From Odontesthes bonariensis (taxonomy: Eukaryota; Chordata; Actinopteri; Atheriniformes; Atherinopsidae): a stretch of DNA of 64,000 bases. The first letter of the stretch is position 1. Every line of letters starts with the position of its first letter. The notes under the pieces were generated by a model. The model was not told where the DNA came from. It did no database searches and saw only the letters and a list, made by a program, of their open reading frames with translations. Location of the stretch: contig NC_134507.1 in NCBI RefSeq assembly GCF_027942865.1, positions 33,028,447 to 33,092,446 of the forward strand, given 5' to 3'. The position numbers and the translations under genes were made by a program. This document shows positions 21,965 to 48,560 of this stretch, one piece after another.

Positions 21965-22045
21965 ATGGCCGAATATCTCAAGAGAGCAGCCAGACGCCTC
22001 GCGAATATCTTTGGAACAGCTCCAAATGACCAACAACAAGCAGGG
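21965..22045 (+). CDS. Possible 5' coding exon, 27 codons
   Basis: An ATG at 21,965 opens MAEYLKRAARRLANIFGTAP and ends at 22,045, directly followed by the good donor GTGAGTAG. The translation is amphipathic and looks protein-like, but I found no continuation and recognise no family. It may belong to a transposon or a lost gene. Confidence 0.2.
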
Positions 22046-22949: not shown

Positions 22950-23110
22950 GCGAACCGTGAGCACTATGGCTGGGCCTTCACCTCAGCCCTCATTGCTGAA
23001 GAAGAAAAATCATTGCGGGAAAAAAGGCTATCCAAGCTAGCCACAACATTGGTCTCGTCTTCCGACAAAATTTAATTTCCTTCGGGATTAATAAAGTATC
23101 TCCAATCTAA
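22950..23110 (+). repeat. Retroelement tail
   Basis: Ends in 'cttcgggattaataaagtat' followed by a short low-complexity tail, a common 3' end of fish retroposons. It interrupts the kinase remnant. Confidence 0.45.
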
Positions 23111-24805: not shown

Positions 24806-25259
24806 CGTGGTTTTTTTTTTTTTTTTTTTTTTTTAAACGGGGCATTAAATGATAAATTGAACATTCCGGTCGCCATTTCTGTTCAATGTTGTACGTCTCC
24901 AAAAAAAAATGGATTCAGTATAATCAAATTTAAAGGGGAACTAGGTAGCATTTTCACCTAAAATTATAGCCTTCAAATTATAGCTGTAGTTGTAGGCTAT
25001 GTGTTCGCTTGTGTTGAAGAGCCAACACCAAGCGTTTCCTATTCTGCCTTTCACAGACTGAATATGAAACGTTCGATGTTGGCACTTCCCATTTTTGTGA
25101 AATTTCTCCAAGCGTGATCTTGTTCATCTACCATAGTGATCTGCGTTTTTTAGATCTTAAAGAGACAGGTGATGATGGTGCTTTCCTGTAAGTGTCTGCT
25201 AATACAAAGGAATCACTCCACGAATACACCATGATGAGGGAAGAATCCCATTCAAAATC
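24806..25259. other. Intergenic, no gene
   Basis: Begins with a T-homopolymer of about 24 bp (24,811-24,834). Nothing else is recognised. Confidence 0.4.
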
Positions 25260-25372
25260 AGCAACAGTCCATCCATCCATCCATCATTTTCCGCTTCTCC
25301 GGGGATCGGGTCGCGGGGGCAGCAGCCTGAGCAGAGAAACCCAGACGTCTCCGTCCCCGGCCACTTCCTCCA
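25260..25372. repeat. LINE-derived 'CATCCATC' fragment
   Basis: 'catccatccatcatttt' is followed by 'cgggtcgcgggggcagcagc', a widespread fish retroposon end. Confidence 0.55.
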
Positions 25373-26135
25373 GCAACAGTATTATAGCATATTATCTTGA
25401 GTTCTCTCTACAGAAAATCTCTGATTATAGTATCTTACGTGGGCAGTCTACACTTGTGAATCAGATGACCTAACTGCACTGACTAAATAACACAACGACA
25501 GCATTCGCCCCGATTTTTAGTTAGTGGATGTGTATAATACAAACATGCAAAACAACCAAATTATCATAGGGAAAACGGACAACCCCTCTCCCTCTGTGGA
25601 CGAGGATTGTGCACGTGAGTTCACACCAGTGTGAGCGCACACAAGCTGGGGCAGACTCACGCTCAGCAGCGTGTGCACAAGCTGTGATTGACAGGTAGGA
25701 TTCCTCCACCCTAACTTGATTGGTTAAAAACAGCCGGGAGCGCTCGGTTTTTGCAAGCATGATTACAGGCTTCAGAGGGAGCTACAGATTTCGTTATTTT
25801 TCCTAAACAGCCTATTTAATATTCTACTTCCAGAATCCCATGACAGTTCAAGCTAATATGACTAAAAAAAAGTTGCTGCCAATTTCCGCTAAATCTTCTC
25901 CAAAAAAAGTTCGAGAACAAACTGAAACAGGACACACAGAAATCAAAGTGACACCTCTGAGAAGGGCGTTCCTACCAATGACGTCACCCTCTTACACACG
26001 TGTTCTGCCTCTGATCTCATTGAAAAAGAAAAAGAAGTCGAATTCGAAGGTGGATTATAAGGCACAGAGCACGCAACTTTTCAATATCATCTCTGGTCTT
26101 AGAAAATCAAGCAGCCAAAAGCTTGGCTTTTCAAA
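25373..26135 (+). repeat. Dispersed repeat R, copy 1
   Basis: The outer parts (25,373-25,580 and 25,890-26,135) are almost identical to 63,338-63,545 and 63,718-63,947, in the same orientation. The middle parts differ completely. It includes a 100-codon ORF (25,840-26,142, start MTVQANMTKKKLLPISAKSS) that is basic and unrecognised; the copy at 63.7 kb disrupts it. Likely a non-autonomous transposable element. Confidence 0.65.
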
Positions 26136-28189
26136 TCCTTGACAGGATCAAAAAGCTCATTTGTTACTAACAAAATGCCCCATTCCAACTTTGTGTCTAT
26201 CTGTACTGTTATTCTCTTATCGGTTATCCTCGGTTATTGTAAAGATGTTTGCGCATGTTGCATGTAATTTATTAGATATTCGGATCAAGGGCGTAGGGTT
26301 TCAGCAGAACCACGGACAGCGCTGTTTGTTTGCGCTGTCCATAGTACTGAAAGCTGAACTTGAATAACCTCTCAGAACGCCGCTCTGAAGCTGCTTTTAA
26401 AGACTTCCCACATATCTCTTTGTTCTGTTAAGTACTGTGTTAAGGCACGTATTGTATGGCATATGTGGTGTAAAGTTGGCTAAGCATTTGGGTGAAGTTC
26501 TTTTGATGGGAAAACTCAGTAGTACTGAGTCTGCACTACTGTGTGGTTGTCGCTTGGGTTTGTCATTGTCACAATTCATGCAACACAACTCTTTATCAGC
26601 AGTGCATTTCTGATATCTGCTTTACAGTAGCTCTTCTGTCAGCTCAGTGAAATACTAAAAATATTGAACTAAAATACAATCATGACTAGCATTTGTAGTC
26701 ATAAAGATCCGGCTAACTTCATTGCAATGCCAATTCATCATCACGCTTCAATCAGTCTGGCTGAGGGGCTGGGAATAGTAGCTTAGTTACATGATCATAC
26801 AGTATATAACACTTCACATGTAGAAGAACAAGAATAACTCTTTGCTCTGTTAGTTCTCAACCAGCTGACATCTTGCAGTTGTCTCAGTTTACAGCACCAT
26901 GTCTGCACATATTCAGTGTCCGTATCTGCAGGCTCCATCTTGGCAGGTGATATTTATGTCATTTAAACATTGAGCATATTCATCCTGGATGCTTGAGAGG
27001 AGGGCATGCAGAGAGGTGTCTCCCATTTTGTCTCTGTTTATGTGTAAACTCAACAAACAAAGAAAAACTGAAACCCACAACTCATGAAAAATTTCCTTTT
27101 AGTGACTGTGATGCATCAAAAAAACTATATGTTACATATACAAAATGATATGCACCATTTTATTTCAGTGCGAAACTCAAATTTACCACAAAATTATCTT
27201 AAACTTTGCCTCTCTGGGGGAATAGTTGCATTTTTTTTTTTTTTTACTCAACCACATCATCTAAACGATGCATTTCATATATAATGGAGATGTGAGAAAA
27301 CATGTTTTGTTTATGTTGAACACTGTTGAATGGATTGTAAAAGAGTGAAAGGGTGTGACAGAATTATTGGTGTAGGAGCAGAAAAAGAACTAAACACAGC
27401 TGCTTTTATACTTGTTCAACAGATTAAGTCCCTGTTTTCTTCAACAGAGGGCAGTGTACGCCCAGAGTTAAATGTTGGGCAGCACCATAAGCTGTCCAAC
27501 ATGAGCTGCTCAGAGGACAGTGGGATTTGAGATCCTCATGTTTCACATGAGCGACAAGATAGGATTTTGCTAAACCTTCAACTAAAGGTTGAAACATGAA
27601 ATCAAGAGCGGATCGATTTTTGTATATCTTTGCAGGCTGGATGTCACTATTTTAGCATTGTGTAAATGATACACTCCAAACTGTATCAAGAGATATAAAT
27701 CACATGGCCGCAAAGACAGACGTGACATGATCATTCATTTGATAAATACTTTTGTTCTGCACCGTCTGTAATTGTATCAGCATCATTAACAGATGATTTT
27801 TATTTTTTCTAATAGCATAAACTGAAGAATGATCTTTTTGCGGGTGTGAGCAGTGGTCCTTGTTATGGTCAAATGTTTTATTACATTCTGTATTTGTGTG
27901 TCTCTGTACAGATCCAAAACCAAGGAGTCCGCCATACTTTTGTGGTCCAATATTTTTTGTGGGGATCCACATGTTAAAGGATTTTTGAGGATTAAAGCTA
28001 GGTTTAATGGTTTGGGTTAGAATCAGGTTATCGTTGTGTGTTCTAGAATCCAGGCACTTGTGACATAATTGGATTGGACCACCTTTGGAACACTAGAATT
28101 CCATTTGGTTAAGCACATAATCAATGTTGGACTTGAACAGGACACATCTGACACGAGTAGACCACTCTTCAGACGAATCAAGCAGCAAG
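26136..28189. other. Intergenic, no gene seen
   Basis: A/T-rich. Contains a T-run at about 27,231-27,245. Short ORFs on both strands show no domain. It may hold the promoter of the gene starting at 28,190, but no TATA box is evident. Confidence 0.4.
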
Positions 28190-31100
28190 ATGGAAGAAAT
28201 ATACTTAAAAGGAGAGGGGACCTCCGGAACTGAGAATGAAGTTGACAGCGTGTAAGTGTCTCAGGGCCAAATCTAGATGATTTTTTTCCCTCAGTTTTAA
28301 ATTGAGAATGTCTGGTAGAGAAAGCTGATAGAATAACTTTCTTATTTTTGGCGTGTGTCTGCAGACAAATGGAAGAAATCAAAGCAAGATTTGAACATGC
28401 TTTAACATGCAGCTACAAAGAGAAGGAGATAAATGAGAAGCTGTATGAGCATGAACGGGTAATTGAAGAGCTGATTAATGACTTGGAGAAAGAAAATAAG
28501 GACATGGTCAACAGAATCAAAGGGTAAGATACCAAACCAACTAGATTTAACATTTTGCTTTATGTTAGGAGTCATGATGAGACTGTGAATGTATGTGCCT
28601 ACAGAGAAAGAAAGTACACACTCTTTCAATTCTCAAATTTTATGTATCAGGATGTTAAAATAATAATAGTCTTTACCAGATCGTAGTTGAATACAACCTC
28701 TAGATGAACAAAAACACATGATATATTACACTGTATCATTATGTAGTTAATACAATAATTAGCACACTAGTTTGTAGAATCATCTTTAACACCAATAACA
28801 GTAATCGAGACGTTATCAGTTTCTCTCATCACTCTAGAGGCATTTTTGCCTACTGTTCGTTGCAACATCGCCTCAGTTCATTAAGGTTTGCAGGCGTCTG
28901 TTTATTCACAGCTCCTTAAGCCCCCACAACAGCATTTCAACCAAGCTGAGGGTCAGATTTTAGGGCAAGTGGGCGTGAACACCTTTATTTGTTTCTTTTT
29001 CGGCCGTTTTGTAAATTTGCCGGAAATTATTGTCACAATCTCTTGAATTAACACAAGTTATGCAAAGTTATGTTCCTCAAATGTTTGAAAAAAATCCTCC
29101 ACTTTACAATGTCTTCATTAAAACCTTTTCATTTTCGTCTAACTTTCACATAAAAAGATCATTTGTGTGAAAAGAAACCCCCATAGATCCATTGCCATTG
29201 ACCTTTCAGTGCTTACATGGCCCAACAAAATTAAAAGCAAATCAAATGTAATGGAACATGCAGGGCATACCAGACAAATATTAGCCCTGTAATTCGCTGA
29301 TGTTATCTTATTTGCTCATAGGCCATTTGAAGTCAGCAAGCTGAATAGAAGTTCACATGTTTAAACAGTTTTTTATTGCTTTTTCAAATTACCAGCTCAG
29401 ACAATCAATTTTACGACCGGTGGATTTAAAGCCAGGTGAACACTCTCCTACCCCAGCTGTTACTGAACTGCATCTTTGCGAACTTACTGGAGTTGCTATA
29501 CTGAATTACTTTTATTTCCAGCCAGTAGCACCAAGGTCCGATGTTTCCCGAATAATTACAGTCAACAGGTCTCAGTGAATTGAATGATAGAGAGTTAAAG
29601 GTTACCAGCAACACCAACCTCTTTCTTTACCTAGCAGTTTACAAGCTTTTATTGGACATAGCTGAGACTAATGGACGAACTGATGCACTACATGAGTTAC
29701 TGGACTGAGTCTCTCACTCCCCAGTAACATGCTCACACTACACTGATGTATATCAACTGAATCCTCTGCAGGTTAACAATGTTGATAACTTAGTCCAAAG
29801 CTGGGAGGCAACCTAAAGATCTAATATCTGCAGCTTGAATTTGTGATTTCACATCTAAGTGGCTTGCTTCAGTTAAAAGTAGCTCCGTTTGATCAGTTAG
29901 TCTTCATTTGAGCTGATCTGAGATCAGCTAATCAGGGTGTTCAGTGTTGAGTGGACTACTCAAGCACTATTTCCTCATGATTGTGAGAGCTAGTTTGAGG
30001 TAATTGGCAATTGTTTTAGTCTTCCATATTTGGCTGAGTGGTTACTAACATTTGTTTGTGATGTAACAAATTCAGATTTGTTTCTGCTTTATTCAGACTT
30101 TTAACATTCAACATACGAACTGAGGCCTGTAGAGTCTGAGATCATCAAATGTTCTATTTACCTAATTCTAAGACCTGGATAACTTCTCTGTAGGTCTGTA
30201 GGGTGATAAGTAACACCCATTTTCACATGACTGTCTGTGTGGAGTCCAGAATTGACCTTCTTTACAGTCTTGTTAATCTAAATGGTTTATCTACATTAAC
30301 GCATCTGTACACCTCTCTAAAAATGACATTTAATTCCTGCAAGTATCTTTTCTAAAAAAAAAAATGTATATTATAGCTTTTGGATTCTTGATGATTGGTT
30401 TTGTTTTCAGCTTACGGCAAGAAATTGCTAAAGAAAAACAACTGTTTGAGGAGCAGGCAGAACGAGCCCTGCAGCATGAACTTATGGAACAACAACAACG
30501 ACAACAAAGATATAATTTAATCTGGATAAGAAAAGTGGTAAGTGATGAGTCTAACGTGTAGCAGGGAGCCAGTAATTAGTTTCTATCTAAAGTAGATCCT
30601 GATTTTTTACTTTGATTTCATTTTGAAAGGAAAAAGAGAAACAGAGGCTGGAAGAAGAAAATGAACACCTCACTGCTGAGGTACAGTATGAACCAACCAG
30701 CTCTTGATAAGTATCAGTTTGCCTACACTGAGAACCGCAGCACAGGAGATGCCATAGCAACAATAATGCATCTGGTGCTTAAACATCTTGAAAACCCTGC
30801 AGGTTATGCCAGACTTCTTTTTGTTGATTTTAGTTCCGCTTTTAATCTTATCCAGCCACACATTCTTCTTGAAAAATTAACTCAGCTGAATATTAACCCG
30901 TTTTTAATTAGGTGGTATTATTCTTTTTTATCAAATAGGCCACAACAGGTTAAGTTCAATTCTGCTTTGTCTGATATAACCTCCTGCAGTATTGGCGCGC
31001 CCCAAGGTTGCGTCAGCTCACCATTTTTGTTTACGCTATACACTAACGACTGTGTCAGTTCTGGGCCAAATCAATACATTGTCAAATTCTCAGATGACAC

Positions 31101-33654
31101 TGTTATTCTTAGCCTGCTTACTAAACATGATGATTTGAACATTCACCAAACAGCAATAGATACGTTTGTTAATTGGTGCGATTCACACTTTTTACATATT
31201 AACACAAAAAAAACAGTAGAGATGGTGTTCGATCCTAAATCCCTCCGAGGCCAGGGCACAGTGGCTGTACATGGCCAGGCTATTGATCAGGTGAACACTT
31301 TTAAGTACCTGGGGGTGCACATAGACAGCGATCTCAGCTGGCGTACCCAGGTGACCAATGTCTGTGCCAGAATACACCAGCGTCTACATTTTCTGCGCAG
31401 ACTTAGAGTCTTTGGAGTATGTAAAAACATCATGTTAATCTTCTACAGAGCCACGATAGAGTCTGTTCTCCGTTATGGGATTACCTGCTGGTTTGGCAAT
31501 CTCACGGTAAAACACAGGGCAGAAATCTCAAGCCTCATTAGAACAGCAGGCAGGATTATGGGGGTGATGTCCCCCCTTAACCCACAGGAGCTCTTTGAGC
31601 AGGCCACTATCAGTCAGGCGAATGTCATTGCATCAGATGGTGACCATGTACTAAATGGGGAATATATTCTTTTAAACTCTGGGAGGAGGTTTAGACTCCC
31701 TCTGTATAAACACAATCGCTACAAACATTCTTTTATACCTCAGTCTATTAAGATACTGAATAAACTGGGATTGATTGGGACAAAAAGGGACCTCTGCAAT
31801 TAGTGTTTGTACTGTAGGTGGTGATGGAATGGAGAAATGACGAATGACGATGGGGGGGGGGGGGGGGGGGGTATGGACTGGATGGGACAGGGGCAGTGGG
31901 TTAGGAAATTCAATGTTTCTGAGCCTGTACTTTACAATTTTATGGTTGTCTGTTGGTGTTGTCCTCTATGTGTTTTATGGTGCTGTAACCTCCCTGTCTC
32001 CGAGACAAATTTCTCCCTTGTGGAGACTAATAAAGAAACCTAACCTAACCTAACCTAACTTTAAGCTTTGAAATAACAAAAAAAAGGGAAATATATACAT
32101 GCCAAAGCAGCTGTCTGAAATGCAGACAAGACATAGAAAATAATCCCAAATAAAATAATTTAAGTTCATTTAATAGAGTCCTCTTCTTAAACCCACTCTC
32201 ACTCCGAGGCGCTTCTCTTTCAGCTGGAAAAACTCACAAAATATTCTCAGGAAGAAAAGCAGCAAATAACAACAGCTGAGCAGGAAATAAAGGTAACCTT
32301 TTTCTTCATCTAAAGTGATGCGAGGGACAAACTGTCCCAATATCATATTCAGATAGATGAATAACTTTTCATGTGTTTTATAGTGCCAGATGAAGGAGAT
32401 TCCGAAGATCTTCTATGAAAAAGACAATGAAATAAAGATGGTAGGAACATCCATATGGAAAGTTTCAGAGATAATGTCTCTGAATCGTCTCTTAGCTTCA
32501 CTTCCAACATCATAGGTTTTGCTGAATTGATGAAAATGTTAATCTTAACGTATTTCTGTCTGGCAGCTAACAAGTACTGAGACTCAAAAAATGAACATGA
32601 TAGAGGAGAAGTATAAAGTAATTGAGGTATGTACAATGTTCAGTATATTGTGTATCTGTGTGTTTGAATGCTCCTGCTGGTGTTCTGATATTTATTTATC
32701 TTTTTTCTGCAGGATCTCAAAAAAGAAAACAGAGAACTGCGGAAACAGATGAGTGACATGGATTCAGAGATGGAGGAGATGGATTTTATGCAGCCAGAGA
32801 CACAAGATTCAACAGTAAATATCCAACCATAAATACTTTATGGGCAACATTATGCAACACATAGAAAATTAATTCACTTCACTGAATCAAGTTCAGTACT
32901 TAAGGGAATATACCCGTTTGCCTTTTTGTTGAGACGACTTCACTGAAATTGCATCACTTATTTTTGTGATATACATCTTTAAAGCATATTCACTTGTCAT
33001 GTCTCTGTATCATGGGTGGGACCATTTCTTATTTTAAAGAATGAATTCAATTTAACAGGTGCTTAAAGGCAGATGTTCTTACTTTTAGATAGAATCAGGA
33101 TAACTGTCCAAAGTTTTTAAGGCCTTGTGCTAACATATAAAAGAAATTTTGATGGCCATCTGTAGCTTTGTATTCAGCACACAAGTAAGACAGTGGTGTT
33201 GATCCCTTCATCTCACTCAAAGCAAGGAAGTAAATTAGCATTTTTTTTCTAAACTGGCAAGCTATCCTGCTTTGCAACGAGGAAGATCAAATCCTAAACT
33301 GCGTGCTGAAACTTTCTTTTGTCTTTGTAGGAGCCAGAAGCCCCAAGGACTGAGAGCTGGTGCGTGTCTTTCATACAACAACATAACAAAACAACAAGTT
33401 CTCACACTCATTTTTTCAATTTGACTTTCTTTGTTTTCAGCCTGTCAAAATTTGGAGAGAAGATCCTTTGTGTCATCCTGGTTGCAATTATGGTTTTATG
33501 TCTAGATTTCTACAGCGTTCATGTTACCAATTTTATTGATAGTATTTGGATCACTGTTTTCGAACAGATCGAGGCCTACGGAGAGAGAAGTTACCTTGTA
33601 CCCCCTGTTTATCAACTTAGAACTAAACTTAGGATACTGAACCTTACAATATGA
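28190..33654 (+). CDS. Tail-anchored coiled-coil membrane protein, 309 aa, ten exons
   Basis: I assembled ten coding exons: 28190..28251, 28365..28523, 30411..30537, 30630..30680, 32224..32292, 32384..32440, 32567..32626, 32713..32814, 33331..33359, 33441..33654. They sum to 930 nt, all with GT-AG borders and compatible phases. The protein opens MEEIYLKGEGTSGTENEVDS, then is almost entirely charged coiled coil (KEINEKLYEHERVIEELIND, EKEKQRLEEENEHLTAE, DLKKENRELRKQMSDMDSEM) to about residue 235. A single hydrophobic segment (ILCVILVAIMVLCLDFYSV) follows, then a tail of about 50 residues with PPVYQLRTKLRI. This is the layout of a tail-anchored ER or nuclear-envelope protein. It recalls TMCO5-type or JAW1/LRMP-type proteins in architecture only; I could not establish homology. 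Intron 4 carries a LINE. The intact reading frame over ten exons argues for a functional gene. Confidence 0.75.
28524..30410 (+). other. Intron 2 of the coiled-coil gene
   Basis: A 1.9-kb intron (GGTAAG to TTTTCAG), by far the longest after the LINE-bearing intron 4. No gene or clear repeat is seen inside it. Confidence 0.5.
30681..32065 (+). mobile_element. 5'-truncated LINE (L2/CR1-like) in intron 4
   Basis: Starting within a few bases of the exon 4 donor, an open frame of about 370 codons encodes the C-terminal two thirds of a non-LTR reverse transcriptase. Its motifs are LDKYQFAYTENRSTGDAI, LLFVDFSSAFNLIQP, GAPQGCVSSPFLFTLYTND, a catalytic FSDDTVIL (usually FADDT), NTKKTVEMVFDP and FKYLGVHIDSDLSW. 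It ends at 31,803. The 3' end includes a G-homopolymer (about 31,852-31,870) and a tail of CTAAC repeats after 'taataaagaaacctaacc'. The N-terminal endonuclease is absent. The long open frame suggests a young insertion. It is on the same strand as the host gene. Confidence 0.8.
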
Positions 33655-34440
33655 GACAAAGTAAAAATAATCCGATGAGAGGGACTAAAGGGACTAAAAT
33701 AAGAAGCAAACCCCCCTTCCAAAAATATATATATAAAACAAGAATTGAACTAAAATAACATACATACAAAAAGAAACATACAAAAAGGAAACATGAGAAT
33801 ATAAAGAATATATAAGCAGGCAATAACTTCCAACAGAAATAAAATATGAAAATATTAAATGCAATTAAAATGTTTCAGCTGTCAGTGGATAAAGCACATT
33901 TAATTGACAGTACAAGGCTGTTCCACAGCTTTGTAGCTGCCACTGCAAAGGTGCAATATTCCTTAAACTAAAAACTAATTTATAAAAACTAACACTTAAA
34001 AACTAAACTCAACAGGGAACAGCTTAAATGGGTTCCTCAGTGGATCCAAGAGGTCTGGAGTTAGAGTAAGGGTAGAAGGGTTCAGAAATACAGTCAGGTG
34101 TCAACCAACATAAAGCCATACAAACTAGTTTTAGAATCAATTCTGTATTTAAGTGGGAGCAAGGAGGGGGTCAAGGTGACTTTGTCTTTTTCTGATACAA
34201 GTTAGGAATCTGTATTTTTGTATTCTTGTTTATATTTTTGAATTTGAGTATGTAGTGTTGCATGTACATATTTTTGTATTCTTTTTGTATATTCCTTTGT
34301 ATTATCCAACATATCTTTTTTTATTCTGTATATATGTACTGTTATATTCTTGTTTGTATGTATTTTTGTATTGTCATGTTATTGTATGTATTTTGTATAT
34401 ATGTATTTTTGTATTCTTGTATGTATCCCCTTTCTGTCTT
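33655..34440. other. Low-complexity AT-rich spacer
   Basis: A/T-rich, with a cryptic TATTCTTGTATGTATTTTTG-like periodic stretch at 34,205-34,430. The open frames here are low-complexity artefacts. Confidence 0.45.
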
Positions 34441-34442
34441 CT

Positions 34443-34790
34443 CAAACCCCAGCTGGTGGAGGCGGATGGCCACCCTTCCTGAGTCTGGTTCTGCCAGAGG
34501 TTTCTTCCTGTTCAAAGGGAGTCGTTTCACTCCACAGTCGCCTCAGGCACGCTCAGGCCGGGAGATTGGACTGAAAAACAAAAAGTTTTCAGTGCAATCT
34601 GTTGGTTTCCTTAGCTAGGAAATTGTTTTTGAATTGGCCCTATATGAACGAATTGGATTATGTTATGAATAATTATGATTACAATGAACTGAATTCCAAT
34701 TGGCTTGAATTGGGTTTATTATCTAACTGCCTTGAGATGACATTTGTTGTATTTGGCGCTATATAAATAAAAATTAATTGAATTGATTCA
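34443..34790 (+). repeat. Common teleost interspersed repeat
   Basis: 'ggtggaggcggatggccacc' through 'ggtttcttcctgttcaaagg' and the terminal 'tttggcgctatataaataaa' form a very widespread fish repeat. It often creates false ORFs ending in VEADGHPS. It is followed by a short (AATTG)-rich tail. Confidence 0.65.
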
Positions 34791-35187
34791 AAGCAACTAC
34801 ATGAGTCTCATTTCTCTTCAGTTCTGACATCACTGCTGAGCTGCACAGCTGATCCAGGTTAGCTGGGATCAAGGTTTTATCACCATTAAGATGTTTGAAC
34901 TCTTTATCAGTGACTTCAGCAGGAACCTGTGATATGAAAGAGATGGAATAATGAATAAGTGAATCCAGCTTTTTGCTCCTCATGTCAGCGCTCACAGCTG
35001 GTGTGACGGTGAGTCCCAGCAGCTCTCAGCTGTCTGAAGGAGACTCTTTGTCTCTGAGCTGTGAGGAGGACCACAGCTCTGCTGGATGGACTCTGAGGAG
35101 GAACACAAGCAGAGGAAACAGGACTCAGTGTGGATCAGGATGGGGCAAAGCAGCCGGTTCCTCCTGTAGCATCAGCTCCACATAGCC

Positions 35188-38100
35188 ATCAGACTGTGGA
35201 GTTTACTGGTGTGAGCCCAGAGAGGGAGCAGCCAGTAACAGCATCAGCCTCCCTGTCTCTGGTGAGATCAGACTGTGGAGTTTACTGGTGTGAGCCCAGA
35301 GAGGGAGCAGCCAGTAACAGCATCAGCCTCCCTGTCTCTGGTGAGATCAGACTGTGGAGTTTACTGGTGTGAGCCCAGAGAGGGAGCAGCCAGTAACAGC
35401 ATCAGCCTCCCTGTCTCTGGTGAGATCAGACTGTGGAGTTTACTGGTGTGAGCCCAGAGAGGGAGCAGCCAGTAACAGCATCAGCCTCCCTGTCTCTGGT
35501 GAGATCAGACTGTGGAGTTTACTGGTGTGAGCCCAGAGAGGGAGAAGCCAGTAACAGCATCAGCCTCCCTGTCTCTGGTGAGATCAGACTGTGGAGTTTA
35601 CTGGTGTGAGTCAGAGAGGGAGCAGCCAGTAACAGCATCAGCCTCCCTGTCTCTGGTGAGATCAGACTGTGGAGTTTACTGGTGTGAGCCCAGAGAGGGA
35701 GCAGCCAGTAACAGCACCAGCCTCCCTGTCTCTGGTGAGATCAGACTTTAGAGTTTACTGGTGTGAGCCCAGAGAGGGAGCAGCCAGTAACAGCATCAGC
35801 CTCCCTGTCTCTGGTGAGATCAGACTGTGGAGTTTACTGGTGTGAGCCCAGAGAGGGAGCAGCCAGTAACAGCATCAGCCTCCCTGTCTCTGGTGAGATC
35901 AGACTGTGGAGTTTCCTGGTGTGAGTCCAGAGAGGGAGCAGCCAGTAACAGCATCAGCCTCCCTGTCTCTGGTGAGATCAGACTGTGGAGTTTACTGGTG
36001 TGAGCCCAGAGAGGGAGCAGCCAGTAACAGCATCAGCCTCTCTGTCTCTGGTGAGATCAGACTGTGGAGTTTACTGGTGTGAGTCCAGAGAGGGAGCAGC
36101 CAGTAACAGCATCAGCCTCCCTGTCTCTGGTGAGATCAGACTGTGGAGTTTACTGGTGTGAGCCCAGAGAGGGAGCAGCCAGTAACAGCATCAGCCTCCC
36201 TGTCTCTGGTGAGATCAGACTGTGGAGTTTACTGGTGTGAGCCCAGAGAGGGAGCAGCCAGTAACAGCATCAGCCTCCCTGTCTCTGGTGAGATCAGACT
36301 GTGGAGTTTACTGGTGTGAGCCCAGAGAGGGAGCAGCCAGTAACAGCATCAGCCTCCCTGTCTCTGGTGAGATCAGACTGTGGAGTTTACTGGTGTGAGC
36401 CCAGAGAGGGAGCAGCCAGTAACAGCATCAGCCTCCCTGTCTCTGGTGAGATCAGACTGTGGAGTTTCCTGGTGTGAGTCCAGAGAGGGAGCAGCCAGGA
36501 ACAGCATCAGCCTCCCTGTCTCTGGTGAGATCAGACTGTGGAGTTTACTGGTGTGAGCTCAGAGAGGGAGAAGCCAGTAACAGCATCAGCCTCCCTGTCT
36601 CTGGTGAGATCAGACTGTGGAGTTTACTGGTGTGAGCCCAGAGAGGGAGAAGCCAGTAACAGCATCAGCCTCCCTGTCTCTGGTGAGATCAGACTGTGGA
36701 GTTTACTGGTGTGAGTCAGAGAGGGAGCAGCCAGTAACAGCATCAGCCTCCCTGTCTCTGGTGAGATCAGACTGTGGAGTTTACTGGTGTGAGCCCAGAG
36801 AGGGAGCAGCCAGTAACAGCACCAGCCTCCCTGTCTCTGGTGAGATCAGACTTTAGAGTTTACTGGTGTGAGCCCAGAGAGGGAGCAGCCAGTAACAGCA
36901 TCAGCCTCCCTGTCTCTGGTGAGATCAGACTGTGGAGTTTACTGGTGTGAGCCCAGAGAGGGAGCAGCCAGTAACAGCATCAGCCTCCCTGTCTCTGGTG
37001 AGATCAGACTGTGGAGTTTCCTGGTGTGAGTCCAGAGAGGGAGCAGCCAGTAACAGCATCAGCCTCCCTGTCTCTGGTGAGATCAGACTGTGGAGTTTAC
37101 TGGTGTGAGCCCAGAGAGGGAGCAGCCAGTAACAGCATCAGCCTCTCTGTCTCTGGTGAGATCAGACTGTGGAGTTTACTGGTGTGAGCCCAGAGAGGGA
37201 GCAGCCAGTAACAGCATCAGCCTCCCTGTCTCTGGTGAGATCAGACTGTGGAGTTTCCTGGTGTGAGTCCAGAGAGGGAGCAGCCAGTAACAGCATCAGC
37301 CTCCCTGTCTCTGGTGAGATCAGACTGTGGAGTTTACTGGTGTGAGCCCAGAGAGGGAGCAGCCAGTAACAGCATCAGCCTCTCTGTCTCTGGTGAGATC
37401 AGACTGTGGAGTTTACTGGTGTGAGTCCAGAGAGGGAGCAGCCAGTAACAGCATCAGCCTCCCTGTCTCTGGTGAGATCAGACTGTGGAGTTTACTGGTG
37501 TGAGCCCAGAGAGGGAGCAGCCAGTAACAGCATCAGCCTCCCTGTCTCTGGTGAGATCAGACTGTGGAGTTTACTGGTGTGAGCCCAGAGAGGGAGCAGC
37601 CAGTAACAGCATCAGCCTCCCTGTCTCTGGTGAGATCAGACTGTGGAGTTTACTGGTGTGAGCCCAGAGAGGGAGCAGCCAGTAACAGCATCAGCCTCCC
37701 TGTCTCTGGTGAGATCAGACTGTGGAGTTTACTGGTGTGAGCCCAGAGAGGGAGCAGCCAGTAACAGCATCAGCCTCCCTGTCTCTGGTGAGATCAGACT
37801 GTGGAGTTTCCTGGTGTGAGTCCAGAGAGGGAGCAGCCAGGAACAGCATCAGCCTCCCTGTCTCTGGTGAGATCAGACTGTGGAGTTTACTGGTGTGAGC
37901 TCAGAGAGGGAGAAGCCAGTAACAGCATCAGCCTCCCTGTCTCTGGTGAGATCAGACTGTGGAGTTTACTGGTGTGAGCCCAGAGAGGGAGAAGCCAGTA
38001 ACAGCATCAGCCTCCCTGTCTCTGGTGAGATCAGACTGTGGAGTTTACTGGTGTGAGTCAGAGAGGGAGCAGCCAGTAACAGCATCAGCCTCCCTGTCTC

Positions 38101-41100
38101 TGGTGAGATCAGACTGTGGAGTTTACTGGTGTGAGTCAGAGAGGGAGCAGCCAGTAACAGCACCAGCCTCCCTGTCTCTGGTGAGATCAGACTGTGGAGT
38201 TTACTGGTGTGAGTCCAGAGAGGGAGCAGCCAGTAACAGCATCAGCCTCCCTGTCTCTGGTGAGATCAGACTGTGGAGTTTACTGGTGTGAGTCCAGAGA
38301 GGGAGCAGCCAGTAACAGCATCAGCCTCCCTGTCTCTGGTGAGATCAGACTGTGGAGTTTACTGGTGTGAGTCAGAGAGGGAGCAGCCAGTAACAGCATC
38401 AGCCTCCCTGTCTCTGGTGAGATCAGACTGTGGAGTTTACTGGTGTGAGCCCAGAGAGGGAGCAGCCAGTAACAGCACCAGCCTCCCTGTCTCTGGTGAG
38501 ATCAGACTTTAGAGTTTACTGGTGTGAGCCCAGAGAGGGAGCAGCCAGTAACAGCATCAGCCTCCCTGTCTCTGGTGAGATCAGACTGTGGAGTTTACTG
38601 GTGTGAGCCCAGAGAGGGAGCAGCCAGTAACAGCATCAGCCTCCCTGTCTCTGGTGAGATCAGACTGTGGAGTTTCCTGGTGTGAGTCCAGAGAGGGAGC
38701 AGCCAGTAACAGCATCAGCCTCCCTGTCTCTGGTGAGATCAGACTGTGGAGTTTACTGGTGTGAGCCCAGAGAGGGAGCAGCCAGTAACAGCATCAGCCT
38801 CTCTGTCTCTGGTGAGATCAGACTGTGGAGTTTACTGGTGTGAGTCCAGAGAGGGAGCAGCCAGTAACAGCACCAGCCTCCCTGTCTCTGGTGAGATCAG
38901 ACTGTGGAGTTTACTGGTGTGAGTCCAGAGAGGGAGCAGCCAGTAACAGCATCAGCCTCCCTGTCTCTGGTGAGATCAGACTGTGGAGTTTACTGGTGTG
39001 AGTCAGAGAGGGAGCAGCCAGTAACAGCACCAGCCTCCCTGTCTCTGGTGAGATCAGACTGTGGAGTTTACTGGTGTGAGTCCAGAGAGGGAGCAGCCAG
39101 TAACAGCACCAGCCTCCCTGTCTCTGGTGAGATCAGACTGTGGAGTTTACTGGTGTGAGTCCAGAGAGGGAGCAGCCAGTAACAGCATCAGCCTCCCTGT
39201 CTCTGGTGAGATCAGACTGTGGAGTTTACTGGTGTGAGTCAGAGAGGGAGCAGCCAGTAACAGCACCAGCCTCCCTGTCTCTGGTGAGATCAGACTGTGG
39301 AGTTTACTGGTGTGAGTCCAGAGAGGGAGCAGCCAGTAACAGCATCAGCCTCCCTGTCTCTGGTGAGATCAGACTGTGGAGTTTACTGGTGTGAGTCAGA
39401 GAGGGAGCAGCCAGTAACAGCATCAGCCTCCCTGTCTCTGGTGAGATCAGACTGTGGAGTTTACTGGTGTGAGCCCAGAGAGGGAGAAGCCAGTAACAGC
39501 ATCAGCCTCCCTGTCTCTGGTGAGATCAGACTGTGGAGTTTACTGGTGTGAGTCAGAGAGGGAGCAGCCAGTAAAAGCATCAGCCTCCCTGTCTCTGGTG
39601 AGATCAGACTGTGGAGTTTACTGGTGTGAGCCCAGAGAGGGAGCAGCCAGTAACAGCACCAGCCTCCCTGTCTCTGGTGAGATCAGACTGTGGAGTTTAC
39701 TGGTGTGAGTCCAGAGAGGGAGCAGCCAGTAACAGCATCAGCCTCCCTGTCTCTGGTGAGATCAGACTGTGGAGTTTACTGGTGTGAGCCCAGAGAGGGA
39801 GCAGCCAGTAACAGCATCAGCCTCCCTGTCTCTGGTGAGATCAGACTGTGGAGTTTCCTGGTGTGAGTCCAGAGAGGGAGCAGCCAGTAACAGCATCAGC
39901 CTCCCTGTCTCTGGTGAGATCAGACTGTGGAGTTTACTGGTGTGAGCCCAGAGAGGGAGCAGCCAGTAACAGCACCAGCCTCCCTGTCTCTGGTGAGATC
40001 AGACTTTAGAGTTTACTGGTGTGAGCCCAGAGAGGGAGCAGCCAGTAACAGCATCAGCCTCCCTGTCTCTGGTGAGATCAGACTGTGGAGTTTACTGGTG
40101 TGAGCCCAGAGAGGGAGCAGCCAGTAACAGCATCAGCCTCCCTGTCTCTGGTGAGATCAGACTGTGGAGTTTCCTGGTGTGAGTCCAGAGAGGGAGCAGC
40201 CAGTAACAGCATCAGCCTCTCTGTCTCTGGTGAGATCAGACTGTGGAGTTTACTGGTGTGAGTCCAGAGGGGGAGCAGCCAGTAACAGCACCAGCCTCCC
40301 TGTCTCTGGTGAGATCAGACTGTGGAGTTTACTGGTGTGAGTCAGAGAGGGAGCAGCCAGTAACAGCATCAGCCTCCCTGTCTCTGGTGAGATCAGACTG
40401 TGGAGTTTACTGGTGTGAGTCCAGAGAGGGAGCAGCCAGTAACAGCATCAGCCTCCCTGTCTCTGGTGAGATCAGACTGTGGAGTTTACTGGTGTGAGTC
40501 AGAGAGGGAGCAGCCAGTAACAGCATCAGCCTCCCTGTCTCTGGTGAGATCAGACTGTGTAGTTTACTGGTGTGAGTCCAGAGAGGGAGCAGCCAGTAAC
40601 AGCATCAGCCTCCCTGTCTCTGGTGAGATCAGACTGTGGAGTTTACTGGTGTGAGCCCAGAGAGGGAGCAGCCAGTAACAGCATCAGCCTCCCTGTCTCT
40701 GGTGAGATCAGACTGTGGAGTTTACTGGTGTGAGCCCAGAGAGGGAGCAGCCAGTAACAGCACCAGCCTCCCTGTCTCTGGTGAGATCAGACTGTGGAGT
40801 TTACTGGTGTGAGTCCAGAGAGGGAGCAGCCAGTAACAGCATCAGCCTCCCTGTCTCTGGTGAGATCAGACTGTGGAGTTTACTGGTGTGAGCCCAGAGA
40901 GGGAGCAGCCAGTAACAGCATCAGCCTCCCTGTCTCTGGTGAGATCAGACTGTGGAGTTTACTGGTGTGAGCCCAGAGAGGGAGCAGCCAGTAACAGCAT
41001 CAGCCTCCCTGTCTCTGGTGAGATCAGACTGTGGAGTTTACTGGTGTGAGCCCAGAGAGGGAGCAGCCAGTAACAGCATCAGCCTCCCTGTCTCTGGTGA

Positions 41101-44100
41101 GATCAGACTGTGGAGTTTACTGGTGTGAGCCCAGAGAGGGAGCAGCCAGTAACAGCATCAGCCTCCCTGTCCCTGGTGAGATCAGACTGTGGAGTTTACT
41201 GGTGTGAGCCCAGAGAGGGAGCAGCCAGTAACAGCATCAGCCTCCCTGTCCCTGGTGAGATCAGACTGTGGAGTTTACCGGTGTGAGTCCAGAGAGGGAG
41301 CAGCCAGTAACAGCATCAGCCTCCCTGTCTCTGGTGAGATCAGACTGTGGAGTTTACTGGTGTGAGCCCAGAGAGGGAGCAGCCAGTAACAGCATCAGCC
41401 TCCCTGTCTCTGGTGAGATCAGACTGTGGAGTTTACTGGTGTGAGCCCAGAGAGGGAGCAGCCAGTAACAGCACCAGCCTCCCTGTCTCTGGTGAGATCA
41501 GACTGTGGAGTTTACTGGTGTGAGTCCAGAGAGGGAGCAGCCAGTAACAGCATCAGCCTCCCTGTCTCTGGTGAGATCAGACTGTGGAGTTTACTGGTGT
41601 GAGCCCAGAGAGGGAGCAGCCAGTAACAGCATCAGCCTCCCTGTCTCTGGTGAGATCAGACTGTGGAGTTTACTGGTGTGAGCCCAGAGAGGGAGCAGCC
41701 AGTAACAGCATCAGCCTCCCTGTCTCTGGTGAGATCAGACTGTAGAGTTTACTGGTGTGAGCCCAGAGAGGGAGCAGCCAGTAACAGCATCAGCCTCCCT
41801 GTCTCTGGTGAGATCAGACTGTGGAGTTTACTGGTGTGAGCCCAGAGAGGGAGCAGCCAGTAACAGCATCAGCCTCCCTGTCTCTGGTGAGATCAGACTG
41901 TGGAGTTTACTGGTGTGAGCCCAGAGAGGGAGCAGCCAGTAACAGCATCAGCCTCCCTGTCCCTGGTGAGATCAGACTGTGGAGTTTACTGGTGTGAGCC
42001 CAGAGAGGGAGCAGCCAGTAACAGCATCAGCCTCCCTGTCTCTGGTGAGATCAGACTGTGGAGTTTACCGGTGTGAGCCCAGAGAGGGAGCAGCCAGTAA
42101 CAGCACCAGCCTCCCTGTCTCTGGTGAGATCAGACTGTGGAGTTTACCGGTGTGAGCCCAGAGAGGGAGCAGCCAGTAACAGCACCAGCCTCCCTGTCCC
42201 TGGTGAGATCAGACTGTGGAGTTTACTGGTGTGAGTCCAGAGAGGGAGCAGCCAGTAACAGCATCAGCCTCCCTGTCTCTGGTGAGATCAGACTGTGGAG
42301 TTTACTGGTGTGAGCCCAGAGAGGGAGCAGCCAGTAACAGCATCAGCCTCCCTGTCTCTGGTGAGATCAGACTGTGGAGTTTACTGGTGTGAGCCCAGAG
42401 AGGGAGCAGCCAGTAACAGCATCAGCCTCCCTGTCTCTGGTGAGATCAGACTGTGGAATTTACTGGTGTGAGTCCAGAGAGGGAGCAGCCAGTAACAGCA
42501 TCAGCCTCCCTGTCTCTGGTGAGATCAGACTGTGGAATTTACTGGTGTGAGTCCAGAGAGGGAGCAGCCAGTAACAGCATCAGCCTCCCTGTCTCTGGTG
42601 AGATCAGATTGTGGAGTTTACTGGTGTGAGCCCAGAGAGGGAGCAGCCAGTAACAGCATCAGCCTCCCTGTCTCTGGTGAGATCAGACTGTGGAGTTTAC
42701 TGGTGTGAGCCCAGAGAGGGAGCAGCCAGTAACAGCACCAGCCTCCCTGTCTCTGGTGAGATCAGACTGTGGAGTTTACTGGTGTGAGCCCAGAGAGGGA
42801 GCAGCCAGTAACAGCATCAGCCTCCCTGTCTCTGGTGAGATCAGACTGTGGAGTTTACTGGTGTGAGCCCAGAGAGGGAGCAGCCAGTAACAGCATCAGC
42901 CTCCCTGTCTCTGGTGAGATCAGACTGTGGAGTTTACTGGTGTGAGCCCAGAGAGGGAGCAGCCAGTAACAGCATCAGCCTCCCTGTCTCTGGTGAGATC
43001 AGACTGTGGAGTTTACTGGTGTGAGCCCAGAGAGGGAGCAGCCAGTAACAGCATCAACCTCCCTGTCTCTGGTGAGATCAGACTGTGGAGTTTACTGGTG
43101 TGAGCCCAGAGAGGGAGCAGCCAGTAACAGCATCAGCCTCCCTGTCTCTGGTGAGATCAGACTGTGGAGTTTACTGGTGTAAGCCCAGAGAGGGAGCAGC
43201 CAGTAACAGCATCAGCCTCCCTGTCTCTGGTGAGATCAGACTTTAGAGTTTACTGGTGTGAGCCCAGAGAGGGAGCAGCCAGTAACAGCATCAGCCTCCC
43301 TGTCTCTGGTGAGATCAGACTTTAGAGTTTACTGGTGTGAGTCCAGAGAGGGAGCAGCCAGTAACAGCATCAGCCTCCCTGTCTCTGGTGAGATCAGACT
43401 GTGTAGTTTACTGGTGTGAGCCCAGAGAGGGAGCAGCCAGTAACAGCATCAGCCTCCCTGTCTCTGGTGAGATCAGACTGTGGAGTTTACTGGTGTGAGC
43501 CCAGAGAGGGAGCAGCCAGTAACAGCATCAGCCTCCCTGTGTCTGGTGAGATCAGACTGTGGAGTTTACTGGTGTGAGCCCAGAGAGGGAGCAGCCAGTA
43601 ACAGCATCAGCCTCCCTGTCTCTGGTGAGATCAGACTGTGGAGTTTACTGGTGTGAGTCCAGAGAGGGAGCAGCCAGTAACAGCACCAGCCTCCCTGTCT
43701 CTGGTGAGATCAGACTGTGGAGTTTACTGGTGTGAGCCCAGAGAGGGAGCAGCCAGTAACAGCACCAGCCTCCCTGTCTCTGGTGAGATCAGACTGTGGA
43801 GTTTACTGGTGTGAGCCCAGAGAGGGAGCAGCCAGTAACAGCATCAGCCTCCCTGTCTCTGGTGAGATCAGACTGTGGAGTTTACTGGTGTGAGCCCAGA
43901 GAGGGAGCAGCCAGTAACAGCATCAGCCTCCCTGTCTCTGGTGAGATCAGACTGTGGAGTTTACTGGTGTGAGTCAGAGAGGGAGCAGCCAGTAACAGCA
44001 TCAGCCTCCCTGTCTCTGGTGAGATCAGACTGTGGAGTTTACTGGTGTGAGCCCAGAGAGGGAGCAGCCAGTAACAGCATCAGCCTCCCTGTCTCTGGTG

Positions 44101-45535
44101 AGATCAGACTGTGGAGTTTACTGGTGTGAGCCCAGAGAGGGAGCAGCCAGTAACAGCATCAGCCTCCCTGTCTCTGGTGAGATCAGACTGTGGAGTTTAC
44201 TGGTGTGAGCCCAGAGAGGGAGCAGCCAGTAACAGCATCAGCCTCCCTGTCTCTGGTGAGATCAGACTGTGGAGTTTACTGGTGTGAGCCCAGAGAGGGA
44301 GCAGCCAGTAACAGCATCAGCCTCCCTGTCTCTGGTGAGATCAGACTGTGGAGTTTACTGGTGTGAGCCCAGAGAGGGAGCAGCCAGTAACAGCATCAGC
44401 CTCCCTGTCTCTGGTGAGATCAGACTGTGGAGTTTACTGGTGTGAGCCCAGAGAGGGAGCAGCCAGTAACAGCATCAGCCTCCCTGTCTCTGGTGAGATC
44501 AGACTGTGGAGTTTACTGGTGTGAGCCCAGAGAGGGAGCAGCTAGTAACAGCATCAGCCTCCCTGTCTCTGGTGAGATCAGACTGTGGAGTTTACTGGTG
44601 TGAGTCAGAGAGGGAGCAGCCAGTAACAGCATCAGCCTCCCTGTCTCTGGTGAGATCAGACTGTGGAGTTTCCTGGTGTGAGTCCAGAGAGGGAGCAGCC
44701 AGTAACAGCATCAGCCTCCCTGTCTCTGGTGAGATCAGACTGTGGAGTTTACTGGTGTGAGCCCAGAGAGGGAGCAGCCAGTAACAGCATCAGCCTCCCT
44801 GTCTCTGGTGAGATCAGACTGTGGAGTTTACTGGTGTAAGCCCAGAGAGGGAGCAGCCAGTAACAGCATCAGCCTCCCTGTCTCTGGTGAGATCAGACTG
44901 TGGAGTTTACTGGTGTGAGCCCAGAGAGGGAGCAGCCAGTAACAGCATCAGCCTCCCTGTCTCTGGTGAGATCAGACTGTGGAGTTTACTGGTGTGAGCC
45001 CAGAGAGGGAGCAGCCAGTAACAGCATCAGCCTCCCTGTCTCTGGTGAGATCAGACTGTGGAGTTTACTGGTGTGAGCCCAGAGAGGGAGCAGCCAGTAA
45101 CAGCATCAGCCTCCCTGTCTCTGGTGAGATCAGACTGTGGAGTTTACTGGTGTGAGCCCAGAGAGGGAGCAGCCAGTAACAGCATCAGCCTCCCTGTCTC
45201 TGGTGAGATCAGACTGTGTAGTTTACTGGTGTGAGCCCAGAGAGGGAGCAGCCAGTAACAGCATCAGCCTCCCTGTCTCTGGTGAGATCAGACTGTGGAG
45301 TTTACTGGTGTGAGCCCAGAGAGGGAGCAGCCAGTAACAGCATCAGCCTCCCTGTCTCTGGTGAGATCAGACTGTGGAGTTTACTGGTGTGAGCCCAGAG
45401 AGGGAGCAGCCAGTAACAGCATCAGCCTCCCTGTCTCTGGTGAGATCAGATTGTGGAGTTTACTGGTGTGAGTCCAGAGAGGGAGCAGCCAGTAACAGCA
45501 TCAGCCTCCCTGTCTCTGGTGAGATCAGACTGTGG
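35188..45535 (+). repeat. 79-bp tandem array, 130 periods, spanning an exon-intron border
   Basis: The unit starts GTGAGATCAGACTGTGGAGT and ends CAGCCTCCCTGTCTCTG. From the first GTGAGATCAG (35,262) to the last (45,519) is 10,257 bp, exactly 117 units of 79 bp plus 13 of 78 bp; I can locate 13 shorter units (GTGAGTCAGAG in place of GTGAGTCCAGAG). Each unit is the last part of the Ig exon plus the first bases of its intron, so each carries the CTG|GTGAGA splice donor. Single-base variants (CTTTAGAGT at 35,745, 36,850, 38,508, 40,008, 43,244 and 43,322; TTTCCTGG; CACCAGC) recur in blocks. This shows higher-order duplication of about 14 and 17 units (for example 35,512 to 36,617 and on to 37,959). 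Because 79 is not a multiple of three, no frame stays open beyond about three units; the many ORFs of about 84 codons are artefacts. Confidence 0.97.
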
Positions 45536-45928
45536 AGTCAGTGCTGATGAAGCTGTGTGGAAATGGATGAAATGCTGCAGTTTGTCTCTGTGCTGAGGTG
45601 GATCAGTGATCCTGCAGAGTCCTGTCCTCGCTGTGATGGAGGGAGGTGACGTCACTGAGCTGTCAAACAAAGACCCACCAGCTGCTTTCTATAAAGATGG
45701 CTCCCTCATCAGGGCGGAGCCTACAGGTCACATGACCCTCCAGCCTGTTCCCAGCTCTGATGAAGGCCTCTGCAGGTGCAGCATCAGCAGTCATGGAGAT
45801 TCTCCACCCAGCTGGATCTCTGCCACAGGTGAGGGTTACTCAGGGGACTCTCTCTTATTCCTGAGCTGAGTTTAAAGAGTTTAAACATTCATAATGTGAC
45901 AGTGATGTGATAAATATCTTTATTTCAG

Positions 45929-46122
45929 ATAAAGCCACCATCTCACCCCTCCTACATCCATCTCTCCTGGTTCCTCTCCTCTTCTCTCCCTGGTGTTGCC
46001 TCATGTTTCTGCCTGTGTTGTGGTTCTTCTGCTGTTTCTGCTGGTTCTGCTGTTTCTACTGGTTCTACTGGTTCTGCTGTTTCTGTTCCTTGTACTGTGG
46101 AGGCTTTAGCAGCCATCAGTGA
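45929..46122 (+). CDS. Transmembrane/tail exon of the FcRL-like gene
   Basis: In the frame set by the Ig exons (phase 1 acceptor TTTCAG|AT), this exon encodes DKATISPLLHPSLLVPLLFS, then a Cys/Phe/Trp-rich run ending at TGA. The +1 frame reads a clean Leu/Val-rich hydrophobic stretch (SACVVVLLLFLLVLLFLLVL) until TAG. The normal family exon encodes a Leu/Val-rich membrane segment, so a small indel upstream has probably shifted the frame. The 'ctgctgtttctgctggtt' repetition suggests local slippage. Confidence 0.5.
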
Positions 46123-48560
46123 GGTGGAACTGTACTGAAAATACACTGAAGTTAAAGTTACATTTTTAACTCATTTAAAGGGAAAATGCGTCTATTTGAA
46201 TAATGCTCTTTTATAATATGGGTCTCAGTTTCTGAGAAAGTCTTTTCTTACTGTAAAATGTTGACTGTCACACCTGAACTTCATATTTATTCATGAAAAT
46301 GAGAATATTTATATCCCCAGGTTGTTTTAATTCTGAAAACTAACATTTGTTACAGTAGTTCACATCATCTGTCCTCATAATTACTTTCATAAAATCCAAC
46401 AAAGACCAAACTTTATCATGTTTATATTTAAATTGCAACCTGCAGGTTTACAATGTGAGTGACTTAAAGTGCGGAAACAAGTCCACAGAAGCTTTTCTTT
46501 TAATTATTAATTTTAATATGTCAATATATGTCGACTATTACCAAGTATTCCCCACAGGCAGTGTCCTTGCTGTAGGGACGACCAGGTAAGACATCTGATT
46601 CTCACATATAGATGGAACATTTGCTTTTGCATCATGCCCAGTATTAATCACACATGTTTGTTCATGTTCCAGACAGGATAGTGAATGCTTTTGTGCACAG
46701 TCCACTGTGTGATTGTACAGCTCACGACTTAACTGAATATATTCCAACACCTGGCTCGTCTTCTTGCATCCAAATGTAGAACAAAATAGATGTTTGATCT
46801 GTAAAATCTGATGTAATGGACAGAATCCATGAGAGTTGTTGGATTTATTCAAACCCTCCCCGGGCTCTGGTGTACCGTTACCGGGTATTTATATACATAT
46901 TAAATATAAGGATTTATGAGATGTTCTTACAGTCTCAAATAAACCTTACCTTGAATTCAGGGCACCACCTACCTAGGTTTTGACTTAATTTAAGTCACAG
47001 TCAGGTAGGAAAACTGTTCGAAATCTTACGATCCAGGTGTTAAATTAATCTTTCGATTAATATTCAATTAATATTCAGTCTCATATCTCGCTACTTTCGT
47101 GAAGTTCTCGTTTGGTTGGACAGACATTACGTAAAGAAAGCATACGACACAATCTGTGATTATAACATATATATATATATAGATATATTAACTGTTTATT
47201 ACAATGATATGATCTTAGACATGAACCTTTAAACAAACAGGAGATGCATGGAATATGGGTGATTATATAAAACACTTAGTGAATATAAAATAAAATATGG
47301 GAATGGAGAGATACTGGATGTATTCAAATAGTTTGGGTTGGCTGACTATTTGAAGCTAAATACTGACATTTCGGATTAATTTATCATTCTGTGAAAGCCT
47401 CGAGACATCCATCAAACCCACTTTAAGGTGAAAACGGGTCGGTCTTACTGTGCTGAAGTTCTGTTTAGTCGGTTTGGAACACGGCAGCGGCCACGCGGGG
47501 TCCGAGGGGATTTCTCTTCCGCTCTCTGGGCCTTCCTGGCTGTGGTGGCTGACTTTAGCGGACTTCTCAGTTGCTTCTTTGATGAAGTGAACTTAAGTTC
47601 ACAGAAGATTAATAAAAGGTTGCTTGGAGTTGGCTTTCTTGGTAGGAAAAGGTGATGATGGCGTGAAACAGCGGAGGTTAGGACGTGCGACGTAGAAGGA
47701 CGTGGATGGCGAGGGACGAACAAAAACACGTAAAACGTGCATCTTCAGAGTATTTCAATCTGTTTCTTTGTTCGGGTCTTTCTTTCTCGTCTCCGGGGTC
47801 TCACTGGGTTCTGGAGGGTCTCCTCCGGTCGTCCGCTGCATCGTTATCCACACGTCCTTCCGTTCTCTTGAGATTATGGGAAAACTCCCAAACTCCGGCG
47901 AGCTCTTCTCTTCTGCTTAAACCATCTCCAAAACTCTCTGAGCAGCTGTTCTCTGCTCAAATCTCCTTCTGAAACTCTGGGTTGGAACCCTTCTGGAACA
48001 AGAGGCAAGAAGCAAGAGAGCAGACGCCTGAAGCGAGCCAGCAAACGAGAGAACTAGAGAGCACTAGAGAGCCTGTGTTTTCCGCGGGTTCCGGGTTTTG
48101 ACTCTCGGAGGCGGTGCTTACACTACTTTTTCAGCCAATGACATGCTTGAACTGTGTGCATGTCTGTGTAAGGTGATTTGTGCTATATGGGGATTTCTGG
48201 ATTTAGACAAAGAAAACTCTTATTTCTCCATTACTCCCATCTCATAGAACATTTGTCTCGGTGATTCTGAAAACACCACATCTTGTTAAGATATGCAGAT
48301 TAAAGATATAACATAGACTTGTAATATAAAGACATCAAAATAACACACGTGATAAAGACAATTATGACTTTCAAAATTCAGATGAATATCTATGAAATCG
48401 TGACATATGAATAGTGAGCCACACAATGTTCATTTTCTGTGTTAACAATGGGGACACTAAACAAATACCAAATAGATACCGAAGGGACATCGTTAGAAGT
48501 TACTTGTTGCATATATTGTCCATTTTACTGAGTCCTCTGGGATTTAAATGTTCAACTAAT
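46123..48560. other. Intergenic, no recognised gene
   Basis: A minus-strand ORF of 104 codons (46,852-46,538; cysteine- and histidine-rich, start MNKSNNSHGFCPLHQILQIK) and a basic minus-strand ORF at 47,729-47,445 are unrecognised and unsupported. A short (TA)n lies near 47,168. The GC-richer 47,440-48,120 stretch looks like a retroelement end or CpG-rich promoter but shows no diagnostic termini. Confidence 0.35.

Follow-up and report, generated by a model that had tools for sequence, protein, structure and literature searches.

Background

The minisatellite of the human IFI6 (6-16) gene, the original report of which is said to be that of Turri et al. in 1995, consists of 12-bp units in about 26 copies. 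Its repeat units are described as alternative splice donors (PMC4526556). In amphioxus, the so-called 'mirage' minisatellites are tandem repeats placed across the border between an exon and an intron, where they multiply the signals for splicing; they are described in the globin genes BflGb6 (on the acceptor side) and BflGb9 (on the donor side), in Adh3 and in TnC, with similar repeats in PGBD5, and their unit sizes are given as 10-72 bp in Adh3 and 150-160 bp in BflGb6 (PMC3087553, PMC3902484). BflGb6 has haplotypes of 6 and 3 units, and mirages seem, according to their authors, not to disturb regular splicing (PMC3087553). Variable internal tandem repeats, on average of 30-bp units in 4 copies, are likewise described in human segmental-duplication genes (PMC2812944), and intron gain through tandem duplication across an intron-exon border is described for the potato RdRp gene (PMC4974935). 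Boundary-spanning tandem repeats are proposed sources of new introns and isoforms, and the compared examples are small.

Here, we describe a 10-kb array at such a border in the fish Odontesthes bonariensis, based on a computational analysis of the window, i.e., the whole 64,000-nt stretch of contig NC_134507.1 presented above. Our results suggest that the array is likely to be a boundary-spanning minisatellite, neutral or nearly so, which was seeded by a 15-mer of the intron in a decayed teleost FcRL-like gene. The coordinates of all features are collected in Table 1.

Table 1. Features of the array and its host gene (positions within the window)
Feature	Coordinates	Strand	Remarks
Mini-exon, 36 nt, end of signal peptide (LTSLLSCTADP)	34822..34857	+	AG before, GT at 34858
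D1 Ig exon, FcRL-like	34998..35261	+	aligned with FcRL-like proteins; one stop
In-frame TAG stop in D1	35183..35185	+	two bases 5' of the array
Tandem array	35188..45538	+	118 and 13 units of 79 and 78 bp, plus 15 bp; GTGAG donor after the D1 exon end in each full unit
First donor GTGAGA (predicted)	35262..35267	+	
131st donor GTGAGA (predicted)	45519..45524	+	
Intron remaining past the last donor (79 nt)	45519..45597	+	ends GCTGAG/GTGG (slash, intron-exon border); acceptor by homology
Intronic 15-mer, inferred ancestral seed copy	45524..45538	+	reads IRLWS
D2 Ig exon, first canonical cysteine missing	45598..45828	+	aligned with FcRL-like proteins
Putative transmembrane/tail exon ending in TGA	45929..46122	+	hydrophobic translation, weak homology

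Results

Structure of the array

The tandem array claimed in a sequence-only reading of this DNA proved to be real with small corrections, since a wrap-around parse and Tandem Repeats Finder agree on it. The parse divides 35188-45538 into 132 pieces, of which 118 are 79 bp long, 13 are 78 bp long and the last is a partial unit of 15 bp; this preserves the previously claimed total of 131 donors and corrects the split of 117 and 13 units, while Tandem Repeats Finder gave a period of 79 with 131.2 copies, 97% matches and a score of 19771. The unit is composed of 74 nt from the 3' end of the D1 exon followed by GTGAG, the boundary between them being set by homology. An intergenic satellite that later met an exon was rejected, as the unit itself is made of the D1 exon end and the intron start. 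The 15-mer ATCAGACTGTGGAGT starts the array and also forms the final partial unit, after which the intron continues with CAGTGCTGATGAAG.

The 131 units fall into 30 types with a mean pairwise divergence of 2.3%. All 13 units of 78 bp share one deletion, which falls on position 29 of the unit and is accompanied in each by C>T at position 30; an equivalent reading is that the frequent 29C>T variant has lost one C. In addition, whole blocks of units recur along the array: the 12-unit pattern of units 9-20 is found again at units 26-37, the 7-unit pattern of units 5-11 at units 19-25, and units 6-11 once more at units 41-46. Because of these recurring blocks, the array probably grew in part through multi-unit exchange, barring the case in which the blocks are assembly errors. 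Mis-joined reads could likewise produce blocks that recur exactly at the unit level, in which case all or some of the array length (for instance the repeated blocks) would be an assembly artefact; however, the thirty unit types stand in a non-trivial order, the window contains no N, and neither flank (34780-35187, 45539-46600) is duplicated in the rest of the window apart from the array (E 1e-3), which makes such an artefact very unlikely in our view.

A coding role of the array sequence was rejected, as the longest stop-free stretch over the six frames is 113 codons. RNA structure was also rejected, since the fold of three units is ordinary (z -0.69, with 50 of 200 shuffles folding as well).

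Host gene

Judging by homology, the array lies in a teleost gene of the Fc-receptor-like (FcRL) type. D1 and D2 are similar to FcRL-like proteins, with 993 matches, the best 120 of which are listed. Among these best 120, the top E-values belong to P0001 (Channa argus, 67% identity) and P0002 (Perca flavescens, 63%), and the highest identity among the matches listed (84% over 100% of the query) is that of P0008 of O. bonariensis itself, a protein annotated LOW QUALITY that is 88% identical to the window gene in the alignment. Moreover, the window protein matches FCRL5 chain E in the PDB (5.7e-9). The D1 domain reaches 23.2 bits with the Pfam 'ig' model (cut-off 21.8) and stays below the respective cut-offs of Ig_3, Ig_2 and V-set; a start of its exon at 34989 is a possible alternative. 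The translation of the mini-exon (LTSLLSCTADP) matches P0009 and P0242. For the comparisons below, the relatives examined were 132 FcRL-like proteins (the best 120 of the 993 matches and all 12 of a second search), in which a pattern identified 133 D1-like sites.

A repeat at 34588-34755, with an inverted copy at 19429-19597 (83%), lies just upstream of the mini-exon; should this repeat be a mobile element, the first exon that was not found might have been replaced by it or cut off from the rest of the gene.

Decay of the gene

This gene is probably a pseudogene, regardless of any effect of the array, because it combines an in-frame TAG, a missing D2 cysteine and the lack of a recognisable first exon in the 15 kb searched. 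The TAG interrupts D1, and D2 is without its first Ig cysteine at a place where relatives read, for example, GDVTLSC, so that the gene offers neither an uninterrupted reading frame nor a cysteine pair in each of its two Ig domains. At the TAG position, the 133 D1-like sites of the relatives carry F, Y, D, L, V and others, with Q once (in P0008), and these stop-free relatives provide no control for the rarity of the TAG since predicted proteins cannot show stops. No signal-peptide start exon was found by ATG listing in 32001-34830, nor by alignment to the leaders of two relatives in the three + frames of 20001-35000, this search covering 15 kb of the + strand; a more distant or diverged exon may exist.

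When compared to the columns that are invariant in 11 relatives, the window gene differs in 10 of 96, four of these being gaps (one of them the absent leader Met), and the same test applied to relatives gave 9 of 105 for P0014 and 10 of 106 for P0008. Apart from the stop, conservation therefore appears fairly good, suggesting that the decay is recent or partial. Note that D2 of P0242, a related protein from O. bonariensis, is likewise unlike that of the family and ends in a differing tail, so decay may be more widespread in this branch. The earlier proposal that the array could have killed the gene cannot be upheld for the array in particular, given that the TAG lies upstream of it, that D2 is without its first Ig cysteine and that no start exon was found on the + strand of 20001-35000.

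Acceptor and candidate donors

Across the D1-D2 junction, the relatives read GGSVILQ or GGPVILQ, which by homology puts the beginning of the D2 exon at 45598, with GAG as the acceptor. With this acceptor, the intron measures 10,336 nt from the first donor and 79 nt from the last one, and not the 88 bp proposed earlier. The acceptor at 45607, on the other hand, is possible and in frame, but its use loses three conserved residues, and we rejected it in favour of 45598.

The candidate donor CTG/GTGAGATC (slash, exon-intron border) occurs in 131 of the 131 full units, where it is identical over 11 nt, and each unit accordingly holds a plausible donor, which is the property of IFI6-type multiple-donor repeats. 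Outside the array, the 11-mer CTGGTGAGATC is absent from the + strand of the window, and CTGGTGAG is likewise absent from the + strand and occurs once on the - strand. The array donor has a U1 pairing energy of -8.1 kcal/mol, within the strongest 5% of the + strand GT sites in the window, which is weaker than that of the donor of the next intron at 45829 (-11.6) and stronger than that of the mini-exon donor at 34858 (-7.1). Overall, 131 identical candidate donors are opposed to one likely acceptor.

If the array were transcribed and its donors functional, U1 binding along 10 kb or competition among donors would regulate the transcript or make many isoforms; the splicing sink of the sequence-only reading would be a hypothetical outcome of the same sort. 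The identity of all donors over 11 nt and their pairing energy are in line with this, as are the models of relatives that run into the same intron, so that donor use may be naturally incomplete. However, the invariance of the donors is not beyond chance (zero variable unit positions in the 9-nt donor window, with a probability of about 0.06) and is no proof of selection, although some selection on them is conceivable; protein isoforms would have no meaning past the TAG, which precedes the array, and the three-unit RNA fold mentioned above is not unusual; we thus regard functional donors as highly doubtful. With the D1 frame closed ahead of the array, the protein encoded upstream of the TAG would be the same for every donor, and protein output is independent of which donor is chosen.

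Seed 15-mer and origin of the unit

The 15-mer is exact between its exon and intron copies. Their local alignment scores 32, a value reached by 0 of 500 base shuffles, although by a small margin (best shuffle 31). Past the 15-mer, the exon-intron similarity scores 16 and is reached by 93 of 500 shuffles, and an older, longer duplication behind the seed was rejected on this ground.

According to a second pattern, 126 of the 133 D1-like sites run on into D2 and 7 do not. Six of these 7 continue with a peptide like the intron start of the window, namely GKIRLWSQY in P0247 (Perca flavescens), GKIRLWSQC in P0250 (Epinephelus lanceolatus), CKIRLWSH in P0002 (Perca flavescens), GKTRLGGQ in P0248 (Etheostoma), GKLSVWS in P0249 (Oreochromis aureus) and GKLSVWT in P0004 (Pundamilia), while the seventh, P0252 (Menidia), carries an unrelated peptide. 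Proteins of Perca and Epinephelus therefore also have, after the end of D1, the IRLWS peptide that the 15-mer encodes, and the seed peptide is clear in perch and grouper and diverged in the darter and cichlid models. P0002 and P0004 have two D1-like copies each and hence differ from simple models with a single copy. The continuations of P0247 and P0250 correspond to read-through of the last donor of the window, unlike read-through of the first donor, which lies inside the array, and both proteins look like the array-free form.

As the read-through peptides of the relatives match the intron start of the window, the intronic 15-mer appears to be older than the array, and this intron start, with the 15-mer and the sequence that follows it, appears to be common to percomorphs, the comparison being one of predicted proteins in which synonymous differences are invisible and the identity of the DNA 15-mer is deduced from codons. 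The earlier duplication model, in which the unit joins the exon end, the donor and the first intron bases, is retained in this respect, and its origin from two 15-mers gains independent support at the peptide level. The last 15-bp partial unit could otherwise be the leftover of a deletion at the 3' edge of the array, the first duplication having had other break points: GAG precedes TCAGTG in the final partial unit and also closes the full unit, and a microhomology deletion could mimic the observed structure. However, the Perca and Epinephelus read-through peptides match the intron start through the 15-mer and beyond, a match that a deletion private to the array would not produce, and this alternative consequently seems quite improbable to us.

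At the exon side, the window D1 has a Cys before GVYWC, where the 133 sites of the relatives have Ser in 120 and Cys in 1. The base in this Cys codon is that of the intron copy, and since such a codon would come with the intron copy, homogenisation of the first unit seems to have proceeded from the intron side.

It should be noticed that the six percomorph FcRL-like models (P0247, P0248, P0249, P0250, P0002 and P0004) terminate within the intron that follows D1 or extend into it. Such D1 read-through models, some of them D1-only proteins, possibly represent a natural intron-retention isoform of the FcRL family.

Other features of the window

The window also contains a second minisatellite (61148-61725, about 34 bp in 17 copies) and a perfect array of the GCATGT hexamer (59242-59330, 14.8 copies). 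Inverted duplications with 89-97% identity link 4989-6588 with 12866-11272, 7051-8170 with 15592-14471, and 3931-4988 with 21515-20464. TRIM16-like reading frames lie within one of them, the + copy having RING, B-box, coiled coil and PRY domains. A TRIM16-like reading frame at 11821-13161 is 95% identical to the O. bonariensis protein P0125, which stands for a cluster of 34. An 18-bp repeat in a reading frame has 13.1 copies at 21471-21706 as compared to 2.5 in its opposite-strand relative (3931-3975), and the number of repeats is thus unequal between these two inverted copies. Finally, a reverse-transcriptase reading frame (30616-31803, Pfam RVT_1) is probably LINE-like.

Discussion

We propose that, in percomorph FcRL-like genes, the intron start after D1 would carry 15 nt nearly identical to an exon stretch located 79 bp upstream, the array-free intron reading GT(A/G)AGATCAGACTGTGGAGTCAGTGC under this seed model. 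A misaligned exchange or a replication slip between the two 15-nt copies would then have duplicated the exon-to-intron piece, and further unequal exchange would have enlarged the array, including block duplications of many units, as the repeated unit patterns suggest. Every duplication step would have copied the donor and never the acceptor, which would explain why 131 identical donors face a single acceptor. The seed evidence also suggests how border duplications may start, i.e., from an intron that happens to resemble the preceding exon.

At the protein level, the array most likely has no role, and it would be neutral, or almost so, within a pseudogene. In the case of transcription, the RNAs of the locus would differ in exonic array length, each with a premature stop, and 131 donors with one acceptor would amount to an almost ideal experiment of nature on the choice of donor. 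It is rather unlikely, though less so than the alternatives weighed above, that the locus is transcribed with the spliceosome choosing among the 131 donors and that, in addition, this exon border is a recurrent array site in percomorph FcRL genes; if true, the locus would offer a natural measure of the part played by distance, first-come order or exon length in donor choice.

The potato RdRp case resembles the array in that a tandem duplication crosses an intron-exon border, but there one duplication gave a new spliced intron, whereas here the acceptor was not copied and no new intron results directly. The human segmental-duplication genes are like the host gene in belonging to recently duplicated families, in which boundary minisatellites can alter gene structure (PMC2812944), and their average repeat of 30 bp in 4 copies contrasts with 79 bp in 131 copies. 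The IFI6 minisatellite has the same layout, with a donor in every unit; however, IFI6 is an expressed gene with reported donor use, whereas the 79-bp unit is repeated 131 times here and its donors are candidates. As in the amphioxus mirages, the repeats span a boundary, multiply splice signals and have a similar unit size, and the tandem copies show concerted turnover (131 units, 30 types, recurring blocks). In contrast to the mirages, the array reaches 131 units (6 and 3 in BflGb6), its host is a vertebrate and the gene looks broken. The 'rare architecture' of the sequence-only reading is therefore an extreme example, though not an unprecedented one, since amphioxus mirages and human IFI6 are known. 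Altogether, the array belongs to a kind of repeat that is rare but already known, and within it represents an extreme; it resembles the IFI6 type in layout and fits the mirage definition, the differences lying in its size, its vertebrate host and its broken gene.
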